From a virus: a stretch of DNA of 34,259 nucleotides. The DNA is taken from the IMG/VR virus record IMGVR_UViG_3300020583_000030, positions 1 to 34,259 of that record. One strand, given 5' to 3'. The notes under the pieces are model-generated. The model saw nothing but the letters and a program-made list of their open reading frames with translations, was not told the origin of the DNA and ran no database searches. Positions 489 through 14,896 of this stretch are shown here, in pieces. Position 1 is the first letter of the stretch, and each line of letters opens with the position of its first letter. Both the position numbers and the translations under genes were made by a program.

Positions 489-1094
489 TTAAGCGGTGAA
501 GCTTGCGCCGGGGGTGTAGTTCGTCTCGGCAGTCACCTGCAGCACGCCGACTGAGTCGGTGGCCTTGGCAAGCACTAGGACGTCGCCCGGGTTGATCGTG
601 AGACCGCCGGTGGGGCCGGAGGGGAACTTGTAGCCGCCTTGGGTGTTGGTGCCTCCCGGGCCCGCCACAACCACCGTTCCCGTCACGCCGTCAAGCTGCA
701 CGTAGATCGGGTTGTAGAGCGGTGAGTTGGCCGCCCATGCGGTGAAGCTCGCACCGGTTCCCAAGGTCACGGTCACCTTGTTGTAGGAGGTCGAGGTCGC
801 CGTGCCCCCGGAGAGCGCCGGCGAGGCCGCGCCGGTCGCAGTGCCGAAGGCCTGCGCATAGAGCGAGTAGAGCGTCAGAGTGACTTGGTCGGCCGCAGTC
901 GGAACAACGGTCGGAACGAAGGTCACGGACTTCAGCTGCCGCTGGCCGACAGTCGTGAACTGGAATGCGGAGTTGACAGCGGCCGCGATGGAGCCGATGA
1001 CTTCGTTGACGTTGGTGTAGAGCGCGTTGTCGTACGCGCGCGAGAAAGAGACCGCGGTGCCGAGCGGCTGGACTAGATTGATTCCTGTGGCCAT
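489..1094 (-). CDS. beta-rich phage protein, paralog B
   Basis: This is a complete 201-residue protein of low-charge, Thr/Ala/Gly/Val-rich composition, predicted to be mostly beta strand. It has no signal peptide or membrane segment. The ATG at 1094 follows an AGAGGGG ribosome site. Residues about 50-110 (from QRQLKS to SYNKVT) are nearly identical to the neighbouring paralog at 1-479, while the region between the N-terminus and that core differs in length and sequence. The C-terminal part has a short TGTVVVAG segment that also appears in the forward-strand protein at 15252-15614. Duplicated beta proteins next to a glycosyltransferase suggest a virion-surface or host-surface role, but this is inference from position and composition. 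Confidence 0.8.
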   Translation of the reverse strand: MATGINLVQPLGTAVSFSRAYDNALYTNVNEVIGSIAAAVNSAFQFTTVGQRQLKSVTFVPTVVPTAADQVTLTLYSLYAQAFGTATGAASPALSGGTATSTSYNKVTVTLGTGASFTAWAANSPLYNPIYVQLDGVTGTVVVAGPGGTNTQGGYKFPSGPTGGLTINPGDVLVLAKATDSVGVLQVTAETNYTPGASFTA

Positions 1095-1184: not shown

Positions 1185-2201
1185 TTATACGGGCGCGGGA
1201 GCTTCAAGGGGTAGCTGAAGCACCTGATTCTGGGACACGTCTATCATTCCTACCGCCAGATTGGCCAGCTGGCAGGATAGGGCGAGGTACTGCTGCACCT
1301 GAGGATCGCTAGCAAATTGTTCGTAGGCCCCCGGCACGGTCATCAAGTTGTAGCCGCGCAGCACAAGGTAAGCCTGCATGACGGAATTGAAATTGAGCGC
1401 CGACATCACGCCGCGGTTCACTTCTTGAATGTGCTCGCTCGCGATATCGGCAACATGCTTGCACCACTCGAGCTGGTTATAGAAATCGCGCGGACCTGCG
1501 GCAAGGATCTCTTTCGACAAGTGCTTCTGGCCGTATTTCTCCAAGCTCGAGTCCGCGGGCGGCGCACGCATGATGAGCTTGGCCGAAGACTCGTAGAGTA
1601 CCTGCCCGAGCATCGCGGCGTGCATCACGATGAGGTGATCCCAGCCCGAGCACTCGTGCCGGATAGGGACTTGTCGGCGGGTCTCTTCGTTCCACAAGCC
1701 ATAGACTTGTGGCGAATCGACGCTCGTGATAACGCGCACGGGCAACGTCGGCATGTTGGGATGCGACCACTGATCGTAGTTCAGGTACAGGCCGCAAATC
1801 TGCCCCGCCTCGTTCATCTGATAAACTTCGGGATAGGCGATCGCTCGCGGCCGCTCGCCGTGGATCGGGGCCGACTCCATGCGCGCAACGAGTCGCTCAA
1901 GACAGTTCTTATCCCATGTGTCATGGGCTCCTAACATGATTGAGTACTTGTGGCCGCCGGCACTCAGCCGCTGCCAACAGAAATTCATGTGAGGAATGCC
2001 GGCTAGGTGCGTCGGCGGCGTCATGAGTTCAATCCGGGGATCCTGGCGCTTTAGGATCTCCTCGAGCGTATTATCGGTGCAGAAGTTCTCAGAGATTATA
2101 AGCTGCCAGTCGGTGAAAGTCTGCGCAAGCACCGACTCGATTGCGGCGCCTATATGCGCGCCCTCATTATAGGCCGGCATCCAGATCAGAACTTTAGCCA
2201 T
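1185..2201 (-). CDS. family 2 (GT-A) glycosyltransferase-like protein
   Basis: This 338-residue protein begins with the typical GT2 nucleotide-sugar-binding half: a beta strand then MPAYNEG (residues 8-14), a helix with IESVLAQTF, a strand LIISENFCTDNT (35-45), and a later GAHDTWDKNCLERL segment (91-104) where the family normally has the metal-binding D-x-D. Here that site reads A-H-D rather than D-A-D, so the metal ligand set is altered. The C-terminal 200 residues are not recognised. It probably transfers a sugar to a phage or host surface target in the cytoplasm, but donor and acceptor cannot be read. The ATG at 2201 has only a weak, distant ribosome site and overlaps the stop of a hydrophobic 29-codon frame upstream, so translation may be coupled. 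Confidence 0.82.
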   Translation of the reverse strand: MAKVLIWMPAYNEGAHIGAAIESVLAQTFTDWQLIISENFCTDNTLEEILKRQDPRIELMTPPTHLAGIPHMNFCWQRLSAGGHKYSIMLGAHDTWDKNCLERLVARMESAPIHGERPRAIAYPEVYQMNEAGQICGLYLNYDQWSHPNMPTLPVRVITSVDSPQVYGLWNEETRRQVPIRHECSGWDHLIVMHAAMLGQVLYESSAKLIMRAPPADSSLEKYGQKHLSKEILAAGPRDFYNQLEWCKHVADIASEHIQEVNRGVMSALNFNSVMQAYLVLRGYNLMTVPGAYEQFASDPQVQQYLALSCQLANLAVGMIDVSQNQVLQLPLEAPAPV

Positions 2202-2283
2202 TGAGAAACCATGCCTCGAATAGCAGGCTAGGGTGAATTAGCACCAGCACACAAAGCAAGAGCAAAAATAAAATCAGGCGCAT
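2194..2283 (-). CDS. 29-residue hydrophobic membrane peptide (micro-ORF)
   Basis: A 30-codon frame starts MRLILFLLLLCVLVL and ends FLNG. Residues 3-16 are almost pure Leu/Ile/Val/Phe, enough for one membrane span after a positively charged residue. Its ATG lies inside the end of the zinc-motif gene 2274-2609 and has an AGGA ribosome site 5 nt upstream. Its TAA overlaps the glycosyltransferase ATG in the sequence ATGGCTAA, the same overlap used between 2602-3000 and 2274-2609. It fills an otherwise empty gap exactly. It may be a small membrane partner or a leader peptide that couples translation. No homolog is recognised; the case rests on layout and hydrophobicity. Confidence 0.5.
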   Translation of the reverse strand: MRLILFLLLLCVLVLIHPSLLFEAWFLNG

Positions 2284-2609
2284 GATTTTCCTGCGGCATC
2301 AGACTGTGAGCCATAATTTGGAACGAAGCCTAGCTGAGCAAGAACTGCGCGAGCTTGATCGGCCAGGTTTCCAGCGCAGTCAGCGTCGTTCGTGTAAAGC
2401 TCGCTGCGAGCGTCGTAGCACTCGACAATGTTCTGAAGCGTCTTCTTGAACTTGTCGTAATGCACGTAGCAAGTGTGGGGGACAAATTCGTTCCACGGCT
2501 CGGCGCACTCGGAGCATATGCCGCTGCGTGCAGGGGGTCGCGGCGTCAGGCAAAAGACACAGACCCCAGCGCTCCCAAAGATGTGACCATCCTTCTCGCA
2601 ATTAGCCAT
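2274..2609 (-). CDS. small Cys-rich, probable zinc-binding protein
   Basis: This 111-residue protein starts at the ATG at 2609, chosen because it forms an ATGGCTAA overlap with the stop of the preceding gene; a longer frame upstream lies within that gene. Cys4/His9 near the start and two knuckles, CVFC (17-20) and CSEC (32-35), suggest a zinc ribbon or treble-clef fold. The rest is helical and acidic. Its last residues (YGSQSD) echo the end of the neighbouring protein (YRGSQSD), and both genes carry the same 12-bp sequence there. The specific role is unknown; protein or nucleic-acid binding is the usual use of such motifs. Confidence 0.7.
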   Translation of the reverse strand: MANCEKDGHIFGSAGVCVFCLTPRPPARSGICSECAEPWNEFVPHTCYVHYDKFKKTLQNIVECYDARSELYTNDADCAGNLADQARAVLAQLGFVPNYGSQSDAAGKSCA

Positions 2610-3000
2610 GCTTCTCGTCTCCGCTGACTGCCTGATCAGACTGTGAACCTCGGTACTCGGCAATCGCCCCATCGGCAATCTTGACGCTGGCGCATGCGGT
2701 ACATTCGGAATGGACTATCCCACTCAGCGCCGCCAGAAGCCGTTCGATTTGAAGTCCCAGGCCGCGAATCGTCGCGAGCGATAGGTCATGCGCCATTGTG
2801 GCGACTTCGTTCTTTCGTTCCGCCTCTCGCGCCAGATCCGCGGCAGTCGGCTTTTGAACTTTAGCGAGAGAATCCAGCGCCGATTGCAATCCATTGAGCG
2901 CCGAGTCAAGAAATACTTTTTGAGCCTGGGGACTGTCCGCGCCTGGGAGCATTGCCAGCGATGCCATGACACTCCCGATGATTTGCCTCGCATCGCTCAT
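2602..3000 (-). CDS. hypothetical helical phage protein
   Basis: This 132-residue protein is predicted to be mainly alpha-helical, with a central charged helix (residues about 55-85) and a CTAC pair late in the chain. No family is recognised. The ATG at 3000 overlaps the stop of the upstream gene as ATGA, and its own stop overlaps the next start by 8 nt, so it belongs firmly to the leftward operon and is probably translated by coupling. A small structural or regulatory role cannot be separated from the sequence. Confidence 0.65.
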   Translation of the reverse strand: MSDARQIIGSVMASLAMLPGADSPQAQKVFLDSALNGLQSALDSLAKVQKPTAADLAREAERKNEVATMAHDLSLATIRGLGLQIERLLAALSGIVHSECTACASVKIADGAIAEYRGSQSDQAVSGDEKHG

Positions 3001-3206: not shown

Positions 3207-3626
3207 TTAGAATGCGAACCGTAGGCCGAGCCGGTAGTTGTGCACCACAAGATCGGTCTCATATCCGATCGTTCCGAGTTCCCACACAGTAACGAGCGAC
3301 CGCGGTGCGTTCAGATCGACGAGGATGCGCGTTATGCCGTAGTGCAATAGATCGTACGCAGCGAAGTAGCCTAGTACCCGGTCGTCGGAGGGGTGCGGCC
3401 CCATCAGCGGATTGGTCTCATGGATGCCCGGATGATTCTTGATGTCGAGCGTCGTCAGCATGTCGGCGAGTGCGGCACCTTGGTACGCCCACTCGAGCAC
3501 CGGCGTCTTTGGAGTCTCATCCAGGACGTCATCCGCGCGTGCGCATTTCACTGCGCATACACAGCAGCTTACCGAGATCGCTGCGCTAAGCAGCAGGACG
3601 AGGTTGCGGGGCGTTCGATGCGTCAT
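3207..3626 (-). CDS. exported hypothetical protein with signal peptide
   Basis: The 139-residue protein begins with basic residues and a hydrophobic stretch (LVLLLSAAISVSCCVCAV), followed by a plausible signal peptidase site near CARA-DD, so it is probably exported to the periplasm or membrane. The mature part includes QGAALADMLTTLDIKNH and NPLMG, a pattern seen in small bacterial and phage membrane-associated proteins with two further weakly hydrophobic helices. A strong AGGAGG site precedes the ATG at 3626. Four cysteines cluster in the signal region. Function is unknown; a superinfection or envelope role would be inference only. Confidence 0.7.
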   Translation of the reverse strand: MTHRTPRNLVLLLSAAISVSCCVCAVKCARADDVLDETPKTPVLEWAYQGAALADMLTTLDIKNHPGIHETNPLMGPHPSDDRVLGYFAAYDLLHYGITRILVDLNAPRSLVTVWELGTIGYETDLVVHNYRLGLRFAF

Positions 3627-4673: not shown

Positions 4674-5054
4674 TCAATAGTCCTTGGCTTCCTGCTCCGT
4701 GATGAAGAAGTGAATGCCGTGGCTGCATTCGACGCGCGGATCGGGATCGAAGCTATCTGGCACGACTTTGCCGCGCTTCGGGTATTTCATGCCGTCGTGC
4801 ATTGCGCCAGCGCCGCTGCTTGAGAGCACGAAAGCGTACTCGGCGCGGCACTTGCGAGAACCATAAGCGTTCACTCGTTTTGCTGTTGCAGATATGCGAA
4901 GCGTGGCGATGCTGTCATCTTCAAGCTTTTTATATCCGATCAGCTGGCCTGCCGGAAGTATGCATTGCTGTTCCAAACCTTTCGCGCTCCTCAGGTTCGC
5001 GCTCCTCAGGTCCGCGATTTCTCGCGATGTCCCATCAAGGAATTTAATCAGCAT
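4674..5054 (-). CDS. pentapeptide-repeat / DUF5758-like phage protein
   Basis: The 126-residue protein has an N-terminal run of A-[D/N]-L-R-S units (ADLRSANLRSA, residues 14-24), the signature of pentapeptide repeats, followed by a domain with YKKLEDDSIATLRI, a conserved RKCRAEYAFVL segment, PDSFDPDPRVECSHGIHFFI and a final helix. This order matches the DUF5758 type of phage protein, which is common and of unknown function. At DNA level the repeat is visible as near-identical 15-nt units around 4983-5015. The ATG at 5054 is preceded by AGGAGAG. The invariant-looking C-S-H-G-I-H-F-F segment suggests a binding or catalytic site. Confidence 0.75.
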   Translation of the reverse strand: MLIKFLDGTSREIADLRSANLRSAKGLEQQCILPAGQLIGYKKLEDDSIATLRISATAKRVNAYGSRKCRAEYAFVLSSSGAGAMHDGMKYPKRGKVVPDSFDPDPRVECSHGIHFFITEQEAKDY

Positions 5055-5066
5055 TTGTCTCTCCTG

Positions 5067-5168
5067 TTAAAACTCAAGCCAAATATCGTCAACATATCTG
5101 CCGGCGAGGGCCTGCGCTCGTCGCGCAGTTACCCGCGCCGCCAGCCAACGCTCGTGCAGAGGCCTCAC
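5067..5168 (-). CDS. 33-residue basic peptide starting at GTG (micro-ORF)
   Basis: A GTG start overlaps the stop of gene 5165-5632 as GTGA. The frame encodes RPLHERWLAARVTARRAQAL then AGRYVDDIWLEF and ends 12 nt before the next ATG, leaving room for that gene's AGGAGAG site. The predicted product is a single amphipathic basic helix with an acidic end. The fit to the gap and the overlap support a real gene; the lack of a recognised homolog keeps confidence moderate. Confidence 0.48.
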   Translation of the reverse strand: MRPLHERWLAARVTARRAQALAGRYVDDIWLEF

Positions 5169-5632
5169 TCCTCGTCCCCCTGCTCATCGTGCGGCGTGGG
5201 TCCGTGCAGCGGCCTCGATTTGTGTTTGGGCCACACAATTACGGAATTCTTCCGCACAGCTTCAGATACGGCCTCGGCGTCGTCCCAAAAGGACCGCAAT
5301 GCGTGCTCAAACTTGGCAAACGCCTCAGCTGTGACTTGCCGGGACAATGCCGGGCCGTTGATCGTAGAATCGAGCAGCTCCGAGACTTTGCTCTCATCCT
5401 GATACTCGAGCGGCATAATGCGAGAGGCCAATTCTACGGCCGTACGCGCGCCCTTGGTGGCATTGCCGGCACCTAGGATGCGCATCAAGCCATAGAGCGG
5501 CATCGGCACCACGAGGTTGATGCGGCCTAGCGGTGTTCCTGGCGGGTACAGAGCGCCTCGCCCCTTCCTATTGCCTTTGCGCGATTCGCCGCGAGTCCAG
5601 TTTCCGCCGCCTTTGTTGCCAAACTTTCCCAT
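5165..5632 (-). CDS. hypothetical phage protein (155 aa), first gene after the inverted repeat
   Basis: This 155-residue protein has a glycine- and arginine-rich basic N-terminus (GKFGNKGGGNWTRGESRKGN), then a mostly helical acidic body (residues about 40-130) and a charged tail (HDEQGDEE). The basic start suggests nucleic-acid contact, while the body shows no known motif. The ATG at 5632 follows AGGAGAAACC. It is the first gene downstream of the promoter inside the 5680-5878 inverted repeat, so its expression would depend most directly on that element. Confidence 0.68.
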   Translation of the reverse strand: MGKFGNKGGGNWTRGESRKGNRKGRGALYPPGTPLGRINLVVPMPLYGLMRILGAGNATKGARTAVELASRIMPLEYQDESKVSELLDSTINGPALSRQVTAEAFAKFEHALRSFWDDAEAVSEAVRKNSVIVWPKHKSRPLHGPTPHDEQGDEE

Positions 5633-5679
5633 TGTCGGTTTCTCCTATGTCAGTAGACGCTAAATACACAAAGCCTGTA

Positions 5680-5878
5680 TGCTATTAGACGATAAGTACA
5701 TCGGAAGGGCAGGTTACCAAAACTCCCCTAAGAAGTGTTTTAGCATTACCAGTATAGCTCTTAAGATCAATGTATACAAGCCTCGCATCACGTACAATAG
5801 TAAATAGGGGTGTACTAAAACACTTCTTAGGGGAGTTTTGGTAACCTGCCCTTCCGATGTACTTATCGTCTAATAGCA
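5680..5878. repeat. perfect 64-bp inverted repeat with 71-nt spacer
   Basis: The left arm (5680-5743) and right arm (5815-5878) are exact reverse complements over 64 bp. The spacer (5744-5814) is AT-rich. The arms have 27 G/C in 64, clearly lower than the surrounding genes. The element lies between the stop of gene 5881-6081 (3 nt away) and the start of gene 5165-5632. No target-site duplication is seen at the outer ends, and no transposase is encoded. It could be an invertible DNA segment, a long RNA hairpin, a MITE-like insertion, a recombination site, or an amplification artefact of assembly. Confidence 0.97.
5751..5779 (-). promoter_or_regulatory. leftward sigma70-like promoter inside the inverted repeat spacer
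   Basis: Read on the reverse strand, a -35 box TTGTAT (5774-5779) is followed after exactly 17 bp by a -10 box TATACT (5751-5756). Transcription would start near 5745, at the inner edge of the left arm, and read gene 5165-5632 and the rest of the leftward operon. The whole promoter is in the unique spacer, so inversion between the arms would turn it to face right. This is motif matching only. Confidence 0.6.
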
Positions 5879-5880
5879 CT

Positions 5881-6081
5881 CTAGTATTCCGGTTTTCTGG
5901 GCTCTACTTGGGGCAAATCTACGTTGTCGTCTTCCCGGAGTCCGGACAGTGCGAGTTTGCGCAGTCTGGCCCGAGCGGCGAGTTTTTCCAGCCGTGAGGC
6001 GACAGCGGCCTCGAGCGCCGGGACCGCACGGACGTTGGGGGAGCGCTTGGATTTAGGCCAAGCTGTGAAGCGAAATGCCAT
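5881..6081 (-). CDS. small hypothetical protein (66 aa)
   Basis: The 66-residue product is basic at its start (FRFTAWPKSKRSPNVR) and has an alanine/leucine-rich helix (ALEAAVASRLEKLAARARLRKLAL) followed by an acidic, Pro-rich end. This could be a short coiled coil. No good ribosome site precedes the ATG at 6081, so the start is uncertain. The stop is 3 nt from the large inverted repeat; if that repeat forms an RNA hairpin it would act as the 3' end structure of this gene. Confidence 0.5.
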   Translation of the reverse strand: MAFRFTAWPKSKRSPNVRAVPALEAAVASRLEKLAARARLRKLALSGLREDDNVDLPQVEPRKPEY

Positions 6082-9130: not shown

Positions 9131-9912
9131 TTGTCGCCCAAACCCCTCGAGACATGGCGGACCCTCCCAAGCCGCCGACCCCGCAGCGCCTTTTGACCCG
9201 CTGGGAAGAGTTCCTGGGGTCAATCGCCGCCGGTCTTCCCCTGCAAGACGCAATGATGAAACACTACGTGACTCGAGCCGAGATCGAAGCCAAGTGCCTC
9301 GTAGCGGCCGAGCAGAAGCGCTGGAACGAAGCGCGCGCCGCGGCCCGCCGGCGGAACTGGTCGGTGCTCGACTTGGAGGACGTCTTCGCCCGGATCGGTA
9401 GCGGGCTCACCGTCGTTGATTCCGTTGAGGCGGTAAAGCCCGGCGGGTACCAGGGCTTTCATGACGTCGTAACGATCGATCCGGAGCTGAACGAGCAGTA
9501 CTTGAAGGCCCTGCGCCTGCGGGCGATGCACGTCGGCGAAGGGATCCTCGATATCGCCGATGATGATGACAAGGACACACTCGACACGGGCGGGAAGTCA
9601 GGAATCGTGCCCAATAACGCGAACGTGAATCGCTCCAAGCTGAAAGTTGAGAGCCGGCTCCGGCTGATGAAAGCATGGTATCCGCAGGTCTGGGGTGACC
9701 GGCCGACGACGCAGGTCAACGTTCAGATCAACCACGCCGAGAAGCTCGAGAACGCGCGGGCCCGATCCCGCGAGAAGCGCGCCATTCCGTCTGCCCGGAA
9801 TCTGCTCAACGCCGCGATCGACGCGACGTTCTCGGAAGTTGTTCCCGCGGGAACAAAGGACGGGAACCAGGCGGCAGCGGATCCACTCGACACGACCTGG
9901 ATGGAAGGATGA
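9127..9912 (+). CDS. terS: terminase small subunit
   Basis: The start at 9127 (MIVAQTPRDMADPPKPP) overlaps the previous stop as ATGA; a longer frame upstream lies within that gene. The 261-residue protein has two helical repeats with similar phrasing (GSIAAGLPLQDAM, and IGSGLTVVDSVEAV), as expected for DNA-binding helices, and then NRSKLKVESRLRLMKAWYPQ and VWGDRPTTQVNVQ. The latter follow the 'r.k..vdtRkwl.skl.pk.yGd....' pattern common in small terminase subunits. It would recognise the packaging site and stimulate the large subunit. Position just before the large subunit supports this; the zinc-ribbon gene in between is unusual. Confidence 0.78.
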   Translation: MIVAQTPRDMADPPKPPTPQRLLTRWEEFLGSIAAGLPLQDAMMKHYVTRAEIEAKCLVAAEQKRWNEARAAARRRNWSVLDLEDVFARIGSGLTVVDSVEAVKPGGYQGFHDVVTIDPELNEQYLKALRLRAMHVGEGILDIADDDDKDTLDTGGKSGIVPNNANVNRSKLKVESRLRLMKAWYPQVWGDRPTTQVNVQINHAEKLENARARSREKRAIPSARNLLNAAIDATFSEVVPAGTKDGNQAAADPLDTTWMEG

Positions 9913-10214: not shown

Positions 10215-11713
10215 GCGCCGCCCTCAAACACGGGGACACGTCTCGGGCACGCGCCGCGCAGTCCTCGAATTCCATGACCGATGCAGAGTACGAGGAAGCG
10301 CTCACTGCCGACATGGGCGAGATGATCGACAAGTTCGAGGACTGGATCTATTACGCCTTCGACTGGGGCAACGGCGAACTTTCCGAGCATGACGGGCCGG
10401 ACAAGTGGCAGATCGCGGTCGCGCGCTCCGTCGATACGAAGCTCGAGGCGAATCCCGACTGTTCGATCCGTGAAGCGACCGCATCGGGCCACGGCATCGG
10501 CAAGACCTGCGAAGTCGCTTGGATCATTCTCTGGATGATGTCGACCCGCCCGCATCTCGCCGGCGTGGTAACGGCGAACACGATGGGCCAGCTCTCCACC
10601 AAGACCTGGCGCGAGCTTGCGCTCTGGCACAAGCGGCTCATCAACCGGCATTGGTTCAAGTGGTCGGCCACCAAGTTCTGGCACGTCGAGCATCCCGAGA
10701 CTTGGGCCGTGCACGCAACGCCGAATAGCGAGCACAACTCTGAAGCATTCGCCGGATTGCACGCGAAGTACGTGCTCATGATCTTCGACGAGGCGAGCGC
10801 GATCCCCGACAAGATTTGGGAAGTCGCCGAGGGTGCGATGACCACGCCGCGCGCATTTTGGTTCGTATTCGGGAACCCGACGAGGAACACCGGCCGATTC
10901 AAGGATTGCTTCGAGCGTGACTCAAGCCGCTGGACGATCCGGCACGTTGACTCGCGCACCTGCAAGATGACGAACAAAGCTGAGCTCGAGGAATGGATCA
11001 AGGCCTATGGGGAGGACTCTGACTTCGTCCGCATCCGCATCTTGGGACTCTTCCCGCGCAAGGGCGCGATGCAATTCATCGGCACCGACAAAGTTGAGCG
11101 CGCGATGCTGGGCGACGTGCCGTTCGATGCCTACTGCATGATCCCGATCGTCTTCGGGGTCGACGTCGCGCGCTACGGCGACGACAAGTCCTGCATCGCG
11201 GTCCGGCGGGGGCGGAAGCTCCACGAGGTGCGCAAGTTCGTCGAGATCAACACCATGCAGCTCGCCGCCGAGGTGGTCGTTGCGATGAAAGATTGGGGAC
11301 AGGTAGCCGCGGTGTTCGTCGACGGCGTGGGAGTCGGCGGCGGCGTGGTTGACCGATTGCAGATGCTCGGGCATCCGGTGATCGAGGTGAACGGCGGCGC
11401 GGTTGCGCTCGACGATGAGAAGTTTTACAACAAGACCGCCGAGATGTGGGATCGGATGCGCACCTGGATGGAGGGTGCCGATCTTCCTCCCAAAGACAAT
11501 GACTTGCGTCTCGCTTTGATTGGGCGGGAGTATTACTTCGATGACAAAGAGCGTATACGGCTTGAGCGTAAGCAGGACATGAAAAAGCGCGGGCTATCCT
11601 CCCCCGATGAGGCGGATGCTGTCGCGCACTCTTTCGCCGAGGAGCTGGGCGATCTCATCCGGAACAGCTTCGAGCCGACCCAAACAGAAAACAGCGTGGA
11701 GCCAGAACAATGA
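10211..11713 (+). CDS. terL: terminase large subunit (ATPase and nuclease)
   Basis: Starting at 10211 (ATGA overlap) gives a 500-residue motor protein. The ATPase half has a Walker A-type loop SGHGIGKT (92-99), a Walker B IFDEAS (191-196) and a GNPTR coupling motif (221-225). The RNase H-like nuclease half has FGVDVARYGDDKS (315-327), VFVDGVGVGGGVVDRL (369-383) and SSPDEADAVAHSF (463-475), giving acidic metal ligands D318, D371 and D466 or D469. All catalytic residues appear intact. It would pump and cut phage DNA at the portal. The glycine-rich loop G-H-G-I-G-K-T belongs to the subgroup with G-x-G-x-G-K-[S/T]. Confidence 0.96.
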   Translation: MSAALKHGDTSRARAAQSSNSMTDAEYEEALTADMGEMIDKFEDWIYYAFDWGNGELSEHDGPDKWQIAVARSVDTKLEANPDCSIREATASGHGIGKTCEVAWIILWMMSTRPHLAGVVTANTMGQLSTKTWRELALWHKRLINRHWFKWSATKFWHVEHPETWAVHATPNSEHNSEAFAGLHAKYVLMIFDEASAIPDKIWEVAEGAMTTPRAFWFVFGNPTRNTGRFKDCFERDSSRWTIRHVDSRTCKMTNKAELEEWIKAYGEDSDFVRIRILGLFPRKGAMQFIGTDKVERAMLGDVPFDAYCMIPIVFGVDVARYGDDKSCIAVRRGRKLHEVRKFVEINTMQLAAEVVVAMKDWGQVAAVFVDGVGVGGGVVDRLQMLGHPVIEVNGGAVALDDEKFYNKTAEMWDRMRTWMEGADLPPKDNDLRLALIGREYYFDDKERIRLERKQDMKKRGLSSPDEADAVAHSFAEELGDLIRNSFEPTQTENSVEPEQ

Positions 11714-12537: not shown

Positions 12538-14896
12538 GCAAACCCGCGAAGCCGTGAATGAAACCCGGGGCGGCGCTCAAGGGTTCACCGTTGATCAGAA
12601 CAACGGCTTCTCGCGCACGGCTGGGGATCTTCCGGTAGGCGAGCATAACAACTCGCCGCTCCCGCCGACGAACGGCATCGGCGGGATGCAACTTCCTCTG
12701 GAGTCCGCGGCCGCGGGCATGGGCAACATGGGCACGCCGATGAAGGGCATGTCGGAGCCCCATCAAAGCGATGCCTGGTGCCTGAAGAAGGCCATGGATA
12801 TCTATGTTAATTCGCGCGACTACATGGAAGCGAATATCACCCTCGGATGGGAACGAAATCTCTACCACTTCAGGAATGAGCATGGCCCCGCAACACCCTA
12901 CGTCCGCGCAGATTGGCGTCGCGCAAGAACCTTCCGGCCGAAGACACGCGCAAACGTCAAAGCCCAGGAGGCCTCCCATGCAGCGGCGGCCTTCTCGACT
13001 GAAGACTACCTGCAGGTCAGTCCTGTCGACGCCACCGATGAGCGTCAAGTTATTTCTGCGTCAATCACAAAAAATTTGGTCCAACAACGCCTCGTTACTG
13101 CGCCTTGGAATTGGTTTCTGACCGCACAGGGTGCCTTTCAAGATACCAAGGTTTACGGCGTTTGCATCTCGCACCAGTATTGGCGCTTCGAGCAGGTCGA
13201 AGAGGTTGTGCCGGCTTATGACGATGACGGCATGCCGATCATGGGCAAGAACGATGAAGGCAAAGACTCGCCGATGGGGTACACGAAGTACAAGACGGTG
13301 GCCGACATGCCGGTCGTCGATATTGAGCCGCCCGAGTGCTTCCTCTTCGATCCGATGTGCGACTGGCGAAACCCGGCTCAGTCGAGTCCCTATCTCTGTT
13401 TGATGCGCGGCATGTACGCGCTTGATGTGCTGCAGTATATGCGGCGCAAGGATACGAAGACAGGGATGCCTATGTGGAGGCAGTATTCGCTGCAGCAGAT
13501 CACCGCGACGCGCAAGGAGAATGTCGACAATCGCACTCGCCGGGCTCGCGAGGGCAGGAAGCGCATCGATCCGCAGATGAACCAGGCCTCCGCCGAGTAT
13601 TCGATGGTATGGGCGCACCTCAACATCTGTCGCGAGAACGGTGTTGACGTCGCCTTTTGGACCCTCGGTACGAACTTGGTGCTTACGGATCCTGTGCCGC
13701 TCGTCGAGATGTATCCGCATCTATCGCCCGGCGAGAGGCCCTTTGTTGTTGGTTTTTCCGTCGTCGAGGCGCACCGGAACTACCCCGACGGCGACGTCGC
13801 GCAGTCGGCGCCTCTGCAGGAAGAGATCAACCAGATCGCGAACCAGCGACTCGATAACGTGCGTCTCGTGCTCAACAAGCGCTACTTCATCCGCCGCGGC
13901 TCGCAGATGGATCTCGATGCGTTGATGCGCAACATTCCCGGCGGCGGCGTGATGACGAACGATCCTGAGAAGGACGTCAACATAGTCAATACGCCCGACG
14001 TCACCGGCTCAAGCTATCAGGAGCAGGATCGCTTGACGCAGGACTTCGATGAGCTCGTGGGCGGTTTTGGCGCGCAGGCCGCGCAAGCGAGCGGTAAGCA
14101 GGTAGATCGCGCGGGTTCGCTCGACCAAATCCAGGGCGCCGCGGGCTCGGTGCAGGACTACTCGATCAAAATTTTCTTCTCGAGTTGGATGGAACCGGTG
14201 CTCCGACAGCTCGTGAAAATGGAGCAGAAATATGAAACTGACGAAACTCTTCTGGCTGTTGCGGCCAAACAGTCCCCTCTCTGGATCCGGTACGGCGAAT
14301 CCACTGTGGACGACACCTACCTTCAGCAAGAACTCGTTACCGTGGTGGACGTTGGGATGGGCAATACCGACCCGGTCAAGAGAATCCAGAAGCTTGCGTT
14401 CGGTCTAGGCCAAGTGATGCAACTGCCTGACATGGGCCGGCGCATCAAATCGCGCGATGTCGCGAACGAGGTCATGGGCGCACTCGGCTATAAGAACGCC
14501 GATCGGTTCTTCATGAACGATCAGGAGCTCGTCGAGCACATGAAAGCACAGCAAGGAATACCGCCACCGCCTCCGCCGCCGGAAGTGCAGATGAAGACGA
14601 TGGAACTCCAGCAGCGCAAGGACGAGGCCGATAAACGCGACCAGCGTGAACGCGAGATCGCCGCTAATGATATAGCCTTCCGCAAAGAGCAGCTCGCCTC
14701 GACGCACGATGTCGCGCACTCGAAACTCGCGGACAACGTTGGCATCCAGGCAGCCAAGAATCACACGATGCGTGATATCGCGGCAGCGAAGGAAGGTAAC
14801 CGGCTTGCCGAGGTCAACATGCAGCGCGCCGATAAGGCTCGGCCCAAGCCACAACCAGCTAGCAAGCCGCCGGGCGGCAAAGGACCACCTAAATGA
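12530..14896 (+). CDS. portal protein (podovirus type)
   Basis: The start at 12530 (MPEQTREAVNETRGG) lies 8 nt before the previous stop. At 788 residues it is in the size range of large P22-like portals. Recognisable parts are an early wing region with YMEANITLGWERNLYHF, a central stem/clip part, the conserved-type stretch SAPLQEEINQIANQRLDNVR followed by NIPGGGVM, helix-rich EQDRLTQDFDELVGG, and a long C-terminal charged helix after a seven-proline run near residue 677, which could form a barrel inside the capsid. It would form the 12-subunit ring at the packaging vertex. Position after terL and before scaffold and capsid fits. Confidence 0.9.
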   Translation: MPEQTREAVNETRGGAQGFTVDQNNGFSRTAGDLPVGEHNNSPLPPTNGIGGMQLPLESAAAGMGNMGTPMKGMSEPHQSDAWCLKKAMDIYVNSRDYMEANITLGWERNLYHFRNEHGPATPYVRADWRRARTFRPKTRANVKAQEASHAAAAFSTEDYLQVSPVDATDERQVISASITKNLVQQRLVTAPWNWFLTAQGAFQDTKVYGVCISHQYWRFEQVEEVVPAYDDDGMPIMGKNDEGKDSPMGYTKYKTVADMPVVDIEPPECFLFDPMCDWRNPAQSSPYLCLMRGMYALDVLQYMRRKDTKTGMPMWRQYSLQQITATRKENVDNRTRRAREGRKRIDPQMNQASAEYSMVWAHLNICRENGVDVAFWTLGTNLVLTDPVPLVEMYPHLSPGERPFVVGFSVVEAHRNYPDGDVAQSAPLQEEINQIANQRLDNVRLVLNKRYFIRRGSQMDLDALMRNIPGGGVMTNDPEKDVNIVNTPDVTGSSYQEQDRLTQDFDELVGGFGAQAAQASGKQVDRAGSLDQIQGAAGSVQDYSIKIFFSSWMEPVLRQLVKMEQKYETDETLLAVAAKQSPLWIRYGESTVDDTYLQQELVTVVDVGMGNTDPVKRIQKLAFGLGQVMQLPDMGRRIKSRDVANEVMGALGYKNADRFFMNDQELVEHMKAQQGIPPPPPPPEVQMKTMELQQRKDEADKRDQREREIAANDIAFRKEQLASTHDVAHSKLADNVGIQAAKNHTMRDIAAAKEGNRLAEVNMQRADKARPKPQPASKPPGGKGPPK

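Follow-up and report, generated by a model that had tools for sequence, protein, structure and literature searches.

A palindrome kept in position and divergent in sequence beside the early genes of Xuquatrovirus-like podoviruses

A perfect inverted repeat was found in the window, a 34,259 nt stretch of viral DNA (IMG/VR record IMGVR_UViG_3300020583_000030). The repeat is one case of a palindrome that is kept in position and divergent in sequence in a group of podoviruses, named 'Xuquatrovirus-like' in this analysis. An earlier note on the same DNA, made from its letters, had described the repeat and had missed the lineage-wide conservation of its position, which we judge to be the main point. 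The reading that is tentatively favoured is a DNA-level hairpin or cruciform element, most likely a replication origin, with a leader-RNA hairpin as a close rival; the function is unproven. If symmetry is conserved in place of sequence, the palindrome also points to a candidate origin or a site of early control in phages with a biology called largely enigmatic (PMC11990801). The isolates PTXU04, Pondi and Bas95 permit direct testing in E. coli.

The inverted repeat and the genes around it

The perfect pairing of the arms around their spacer, reported in the earlier note, was confirmed at every position (Table 1). Their low GC content was also borne out, with values of 0.42 for the arms and 0.38 for the spacer, compared to 0.586 for the genome, and the repeat forms the lowest-GC 150-bp interval of the entire 61.4-kb phage. 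It is held in a 248-bp gap (5633-5880) between two minus-strand ORFs. Beyond the arms, a weaker and gapped pairing was detected by relaxed local alignment of the region with its own reverse complement, and short direct and inverted repeats were seen at 5646-5700. No other perfect long inverted repeat was present in the window. In 20 mononucleotide shuffles of the window, the longest exact arm pair within 300 nt was 10-13 bp.

Table 1. Positions of the palindromes and neighbouring features in the window and in related phages
Genome or locus	Feature	Position	Strand	Remarks
Window	Left arm of inverted repeat (64 bp)	5680-5743		64/64 complementary to 5815-5878
Window	Spacer, 71 nt, AT-rich	5744-5814		Weakly self-complementary, with gaps
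Window	Right arm of inverted repeat (64 bp)	5815-5878		64/64 complementary to 5680-5743
Window	Weak outward extension, imperfect gapped pairing outside the perfect arms	5652-5908		Relaxed local alignment with own reverse complement (G001 3360-3616)
Window	DUF5758 gene	4674-5054	-	Pfam PF19062, E 8.5e-16; syntenic anchor common to G017, L153 and L154
Window	155-aa gene, start 47 nt from palindrome	5165-5632	-	Basic glycine-rich N-terminus
Window	Open frame across repeat, judged fortuitous	5685-5879	-	No homologue outside same phage; GC3 0.38
Window	Small upstream ORF, 66 aa, coding status uncertain	5881-6081	-	No family match
L023	Palindrome, 159 bp	856-1014		9 nt before start codon of leftward gene, the homologue of window gene 5165-5632
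G017	Palindrome, 133 bp	57539-57671		14 nt before leftward gene; same DUF5758 cluster, different small gene follows
L153	Palindrome, 140 bp	2744-2883		38 nt before leftward gene
L154	Palindrome, 157 bp	2137-2293		53 nt before leftward gene
PTXU04	Palindrome, 167 bp	61404-61570		51 nt before leftward gene; score 164
Bas95	Palindrome, 230 bp	55854-56083		39 nt before leftward gene; score 100
Pondi	Palindrome, 202 bp	12701-12902		0 nt before leftward gene; score 148

The 64-aa open frame that crosses the repeat was rejected as a gene, because its homologues were confined to the same phage and its codon use was unusual (GC3 elsewhere is about 0.6-0.8). The focal repeat is a real, single-copy, non-coding quasi-palindrome. 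For the 155-aa gene that follows it, the only homologue in IMG/VR was in L023, where it also adjoins a palindrome, and none was found in GTDB genomes. An AlphaFold model of the adjacent gene product had a mean pLDDT of 41 and was unusable.

The phage and its second contig

The window belongs to a podovirus with a circular genome of 61.4 kb. Another contig of this phage, IMGVR_UViG_3300050821_005455 (G001; 61,395 bp), was taken to be circular because its ends overlap by 97 bp. It carries the identical 199-bp element, letter for letter. Across 31,967 bp, the two contigs differ by 3 mismatches, all outside the repeat; these lie within 8 bp (11208-11215) inside the large terminase gene. The contigs may share sample history, so that their independence is not full. 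The artefact of fold-back amplification that had been considered earlier is nevertheless unsupported, because the repeat is present in the second contig and because independently sequenced isolates have long palindromes at the corresponding place.

In the type of its terminase, portal and capsid, the phage matches Escherichia phages PTXU04, Pondi and Bas95; the capsids are 51% identical. The leftward early side encodes PolA, a Gp2.5-like SSB, an exonuclease and a P4-family primase (TIGR01613).

Several further genes of this phage were observed. At the edge of the window, adjoining a glycosyltransferase, are tandem duplicate genes of unknown family (3-479 and 489-1094; DNA 72-79% identical), with homologues in G004, G016 and G017. 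Outside the window, homologues of both HldE halves, heptose-7-phosphate kinase and heptose-1-phosphate adenylyltransferase, are encoded at G001 53969-54334 (L010:13969-14334) and 54767-55669 (L010:14767-15669), and a cupin gene sits between them; the NCBIfam matches (E 3e-60 and 4e-24) do not reach the curated cut-offs. If the phage carries a route to ADP-heptose, this would be relevant to LPS or heptose signalling. A 567-aa protein (G001 56650-58353; L010:16650-18353) combines a methyltransferase domain at its N-terminus with a C-terminal portion that weakly resembles LPS heptosyltransferase I. The gene at G001 40836-41579 (L010:836-1579) matched a PHROG annotated as queuine tRNA-ribosyltransferase (E 4e-59) and is possibly a DNA-modification gene.

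Palindromes at the corresponding place in related phages

Self-complementarity was scanned across 1.1 Mb of relatives (10,845 windows), and L023 856-1014 ranked top of all. The G017 palindrome came from a whole-genome search, and those of L153 and L154 from loci anchored on the DUF5758 gene. Four IMG/VR loci (L023, G017, L153 and L154) and the E. coli phages PTXU04, Pondi and Bas95, seven relatives in total, exhibited quasi-palindromes of 133-230 bp with a self-complementarity of 63-81%, each separated by 0-53 nt from the start codon of the early-side gene that follows. For the three isolates, the palindrome separates the leftward early region from the small terminase gene. The observed score was reached by 0/1000 dinucleotide shuffles in each of G001, L023, G017, L153 and L154, and the best palindrome scores in the controls were 48 (T7) and 60 (first 50 kb of N4). 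A ranking of long stems by windowed RNA folding was too permissive, its signal not being separable from background.

In G001, G017, PTXU04 and Bas95, the palindrome coincides with the minimum of GC content along the genome. AT-richness is not universal, since the L153 and L154 palindromes are 54% GC. Just downstream of the former lies an endonuclease VII-like gene (L153:3171-3539; Pfam E 9e-19). The endonuclease VII family cuts branched DNA.

Borderline palindromes were found in G004, where 11/1000 shuffles reached the score, and in L158 (2/1000). A palindrome-like stretch of repeated TGCCACA/TGTGGCA units was observed upstream of the DUF5758 gene in the latter (L158:2473-2567). In three distant relatives (G022, G026 and G028), an AT-rich palindrome with repeats of roughly 9 bp in its arms is located just 3' of the primase gene, and G027 has a similar AT-rich palindrome elsewhere. 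These four are not claimed to be the same element as the focal type.

No palindrome of comparable level was detected in G020, in Vibrio phages 219E41.1 and 431E45.1, or in loci L155, L159 and L160; the palindrome therefore recurs in the phage group yet is not universal. A high-scoring repeat at G020 9141-9375 was GC-rich (about 0.68) and was set aside. Since the relatives were first found by palindrome search, the prevalence among them is a biased estimate.

Structure is kept while sequence is lost

No convincing sequence relation was obtained when the window palindrome was aligned with that of L023, or that of PTXU04 with those of Bas95 and Pondi. The G001, L023 and G017 palindromes had no k-mers in common beyond chance, the PTXU04, Bas95 and Pondi palindromes had no more common short words than their shuffles, and no motif beyond chance was common to the focal-type palindromes. 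PTXU04 and Bas95 are 95% identical in TerS and 97% in primase residues, and PTXU04 and Pondi are given as 83.8% identical overall (PMC11990801). The structure and position of the palindrome persist through the replacement of its letters.

The gene abutting the palindrome is only 37-45% identical among these E. coli phages, and in G017, L153 and L154 other genes stand in its place. In the E. coli phages (L147:10636-11352, L152:2904-3584, L149:4771-5814), the abutting gene encodes a fast-evolving protein with repeated, zinc-binding-like CxxC motifs and a conserved C-terminal part.

Somewhat more tentatively than the DNA-level reading itself, the palindrome may be a cis element selected for self-complementarity and not for sequence. 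Template switching would keep its symmetry, and it would start replication, or gate early expression or DNA entry, through the hairpin alone or with a fast-evolving partner protein. Should it be the symmetry that is conserved and not the letters, the palindrome offers a tractable example of selection on structure alone in phage DNA. In the main texts on PTXU04 and Bas95, keyword searches that each covered some of these terms gave no mention of a palindrome, an inverted repeat or a phage origin.

Perfect arms may be accounted for separately from function. According to two published studies, template switching between inverted repeats homogenises the arms (PMC8604942) and creates and maintains hairpins (PMC8794818). 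Such switching during replication, or intramolecular conversion, would probably hold the two arms identical, and the arms would therefore drift together. Template switching would offer a route to 64 perfect base pairs that needs no recent insertion. The earlier suggestion that the arms are kept equal by recombination was judged likely.

A candidate replication origin and its alternatives

For the favoured DNA-level element, the palindrome would extrude as a hairpin or cruciform, or open as an AT-rich duplex, and would be the start site of phage DNA replication beside the early genes. A DNA-level role fits the frequent location at the lowest GC, the early-gene neighbourhood and the indifference to sequence. 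The phage's own PolA, SSB, exonuclease and P4-family primase were also counted for an origin. The conserved primase cannot read a conserved sequence there, and either recognition of structure or a fast-evolving initiator protein would therefore be required. Conserved initiator sites were absent, the focal-type palindromes having no common motif despite a 97% identical primase in PTXU04 and Bas95, and 9-bp repeats in the arms were seen only in the distant palindromes of the G027/G028 type. An origin that a conserved initiator reads would not be expected to change its sequence in this way. Cumulative GC skew, which is confounded by gene direction, showed no consistent turn at the palindrome. An origin is a weakly grounded first guess: the skew does not back it, AT-richness is not common to all the palindromes, and conserved initiator sites are lacking.

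A possible, if somewhat less probable, role is at the RNA level. The leftward transcript would cross the palindrome, and the very long stem so formed would control the gene that follows, through processing by RNase III, a stabilised 5' end or a blocked ribosome site; alternatively, it would yield double-stranded RNA. The palindrome precedes the start codon by 0-53 nt in eight phages, and in three of them (L023, G017 and Pondi) it is in contact with the ribosome-binding region. Folded as RNA, the focal element gave -138.5 kcal/mol (z -16.6), the single strand forming one long stem, and the two strands of L023 gave z-scores of -5.6 and -6.8. Among the transition mismatches of the stems, leftward-strand G.U outnumbered the mirror class by 35:17 in six palindromes. 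However, this ratio dropped to 45:33 when L153, L154 and L158 were added (nine palindromes), and a strand-specific C-to-T mutation would produce the same bias, which was set aside as proof of RNA selection once it had faded. The gene following the palindrome is also not conserved. For PTXU04 and Bas95, a sigma-70-like promoter follows the palindrome and precedes the gene, and transcripts might therefore leave out the palindrome; about one such match per scan is expected by chance. A search of Rfam 15 gave nothing at the gathering threshold; the sub-threshold match to MIR6217 (38.3 bits compared to 110) is what a long hairpin would give.

It is unlikely that the palindromes are a mutational by-product with no selected function, made repeatedly by template switching at a replication stall or recombination boundary. 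The complete turnover of their sequence beside conserved flanks and replication genes, the swapping of the abutting gene cassette and the absence of the element in some relatives would all be expected from such a process. Against it, upkeep is suggested by a place that stays constant and a length that stays similar across the eight phages, and by the persistence of a kind of structure that tends to be unstable in bacterial cells.

A role at a genome end, in packaging or in DNA entry was considered improbable. The palindrome would here be a structured stretch in the first-entering end, comparable to the injection stop signal of T5 or to a hairpin at which concatemers are processed. The PTXU04 record does end 30 bp from its palindrome. 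The PTXU04 study reports that the DNA is not circularly permuted and that assemblies were linearised at abrupt read ends (PMC6563267). However, the palindrome is separated from the small terminase gene, with leftward ORFs between, by 4.2 kb in L023 and by 3.2 kb in the focal phage, and the latter distance disfavours a common packaging role.

Mobile and invertible elements usually look like this, with long perfect arms around a spacer, but a MITE or fold-back element, an invertible segment or an assembly artefact is very improbable: as the earlier note had seen for transposases and target duplications, there is no target-site duplication beyond 4 bp, the element is single-copy in G001, an arm 26-mer was found in the same phage only, the corresponding place in relatives is filled by unrelated palindromes, the spacer has one orientation in both contigs, and the phage genes searched yielded no recombinase. 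An intrinsic terminator was likewise rejected, as terminators are far shorter than this 64-bp stem with its 71-nt loop, a point made earlier that held here, and no terminator-like site falls in the gap.

Comparison with known systems

Template-switch quasi-palindromes, as characterised in published work (PMC8604942, PMC8794818), resemble the focal element in their perfect or near-perfect arms and variable centre; they account for the equality of the arms and not for the job of the element. RNase III sites and 5' stem-loop leaders of phage mRNAs are similarly hairpins between or before operon genes, but the stem here, of roughly 60-80 bp, is far longer than typical, and transcription across it is putative.

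The T5 injection stop signal is reported to contain repeats, inverted repeats and palindromic motifs (PMC13250531). The focal element is likewise non-coding, with inverted repeats or palindromic motifs near the earliest genes, but it is a single palindrome instead of many repeats, and two-step entry would be hypothetical here.

A likeness to the P4 origin is provided by the P4-family primase (TIGR01613) of the focal phage, which PTXU04 also has according to its published description (PMC6563267), and by the repeated GGTGGAWWA-like units in the arms of G027 and G028. Unlike the P4 origin, the focal palindrome lacks units of this kind and lies away from the primase gene. The PTXU04 and Bas95 palindromes are unrelated even though their primases are 97% identical.

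Herpesvirus origins of the oriL type are long AT-rich palindromes, intergenic and near early genes. The focal element differs in belonging to a tailed phage, in having relatives whose palindromes lack a common sequence and in being known here from sequence alone; it is like oriL in being a long, non-coding palindrome with an AT-rich centre near early genes.
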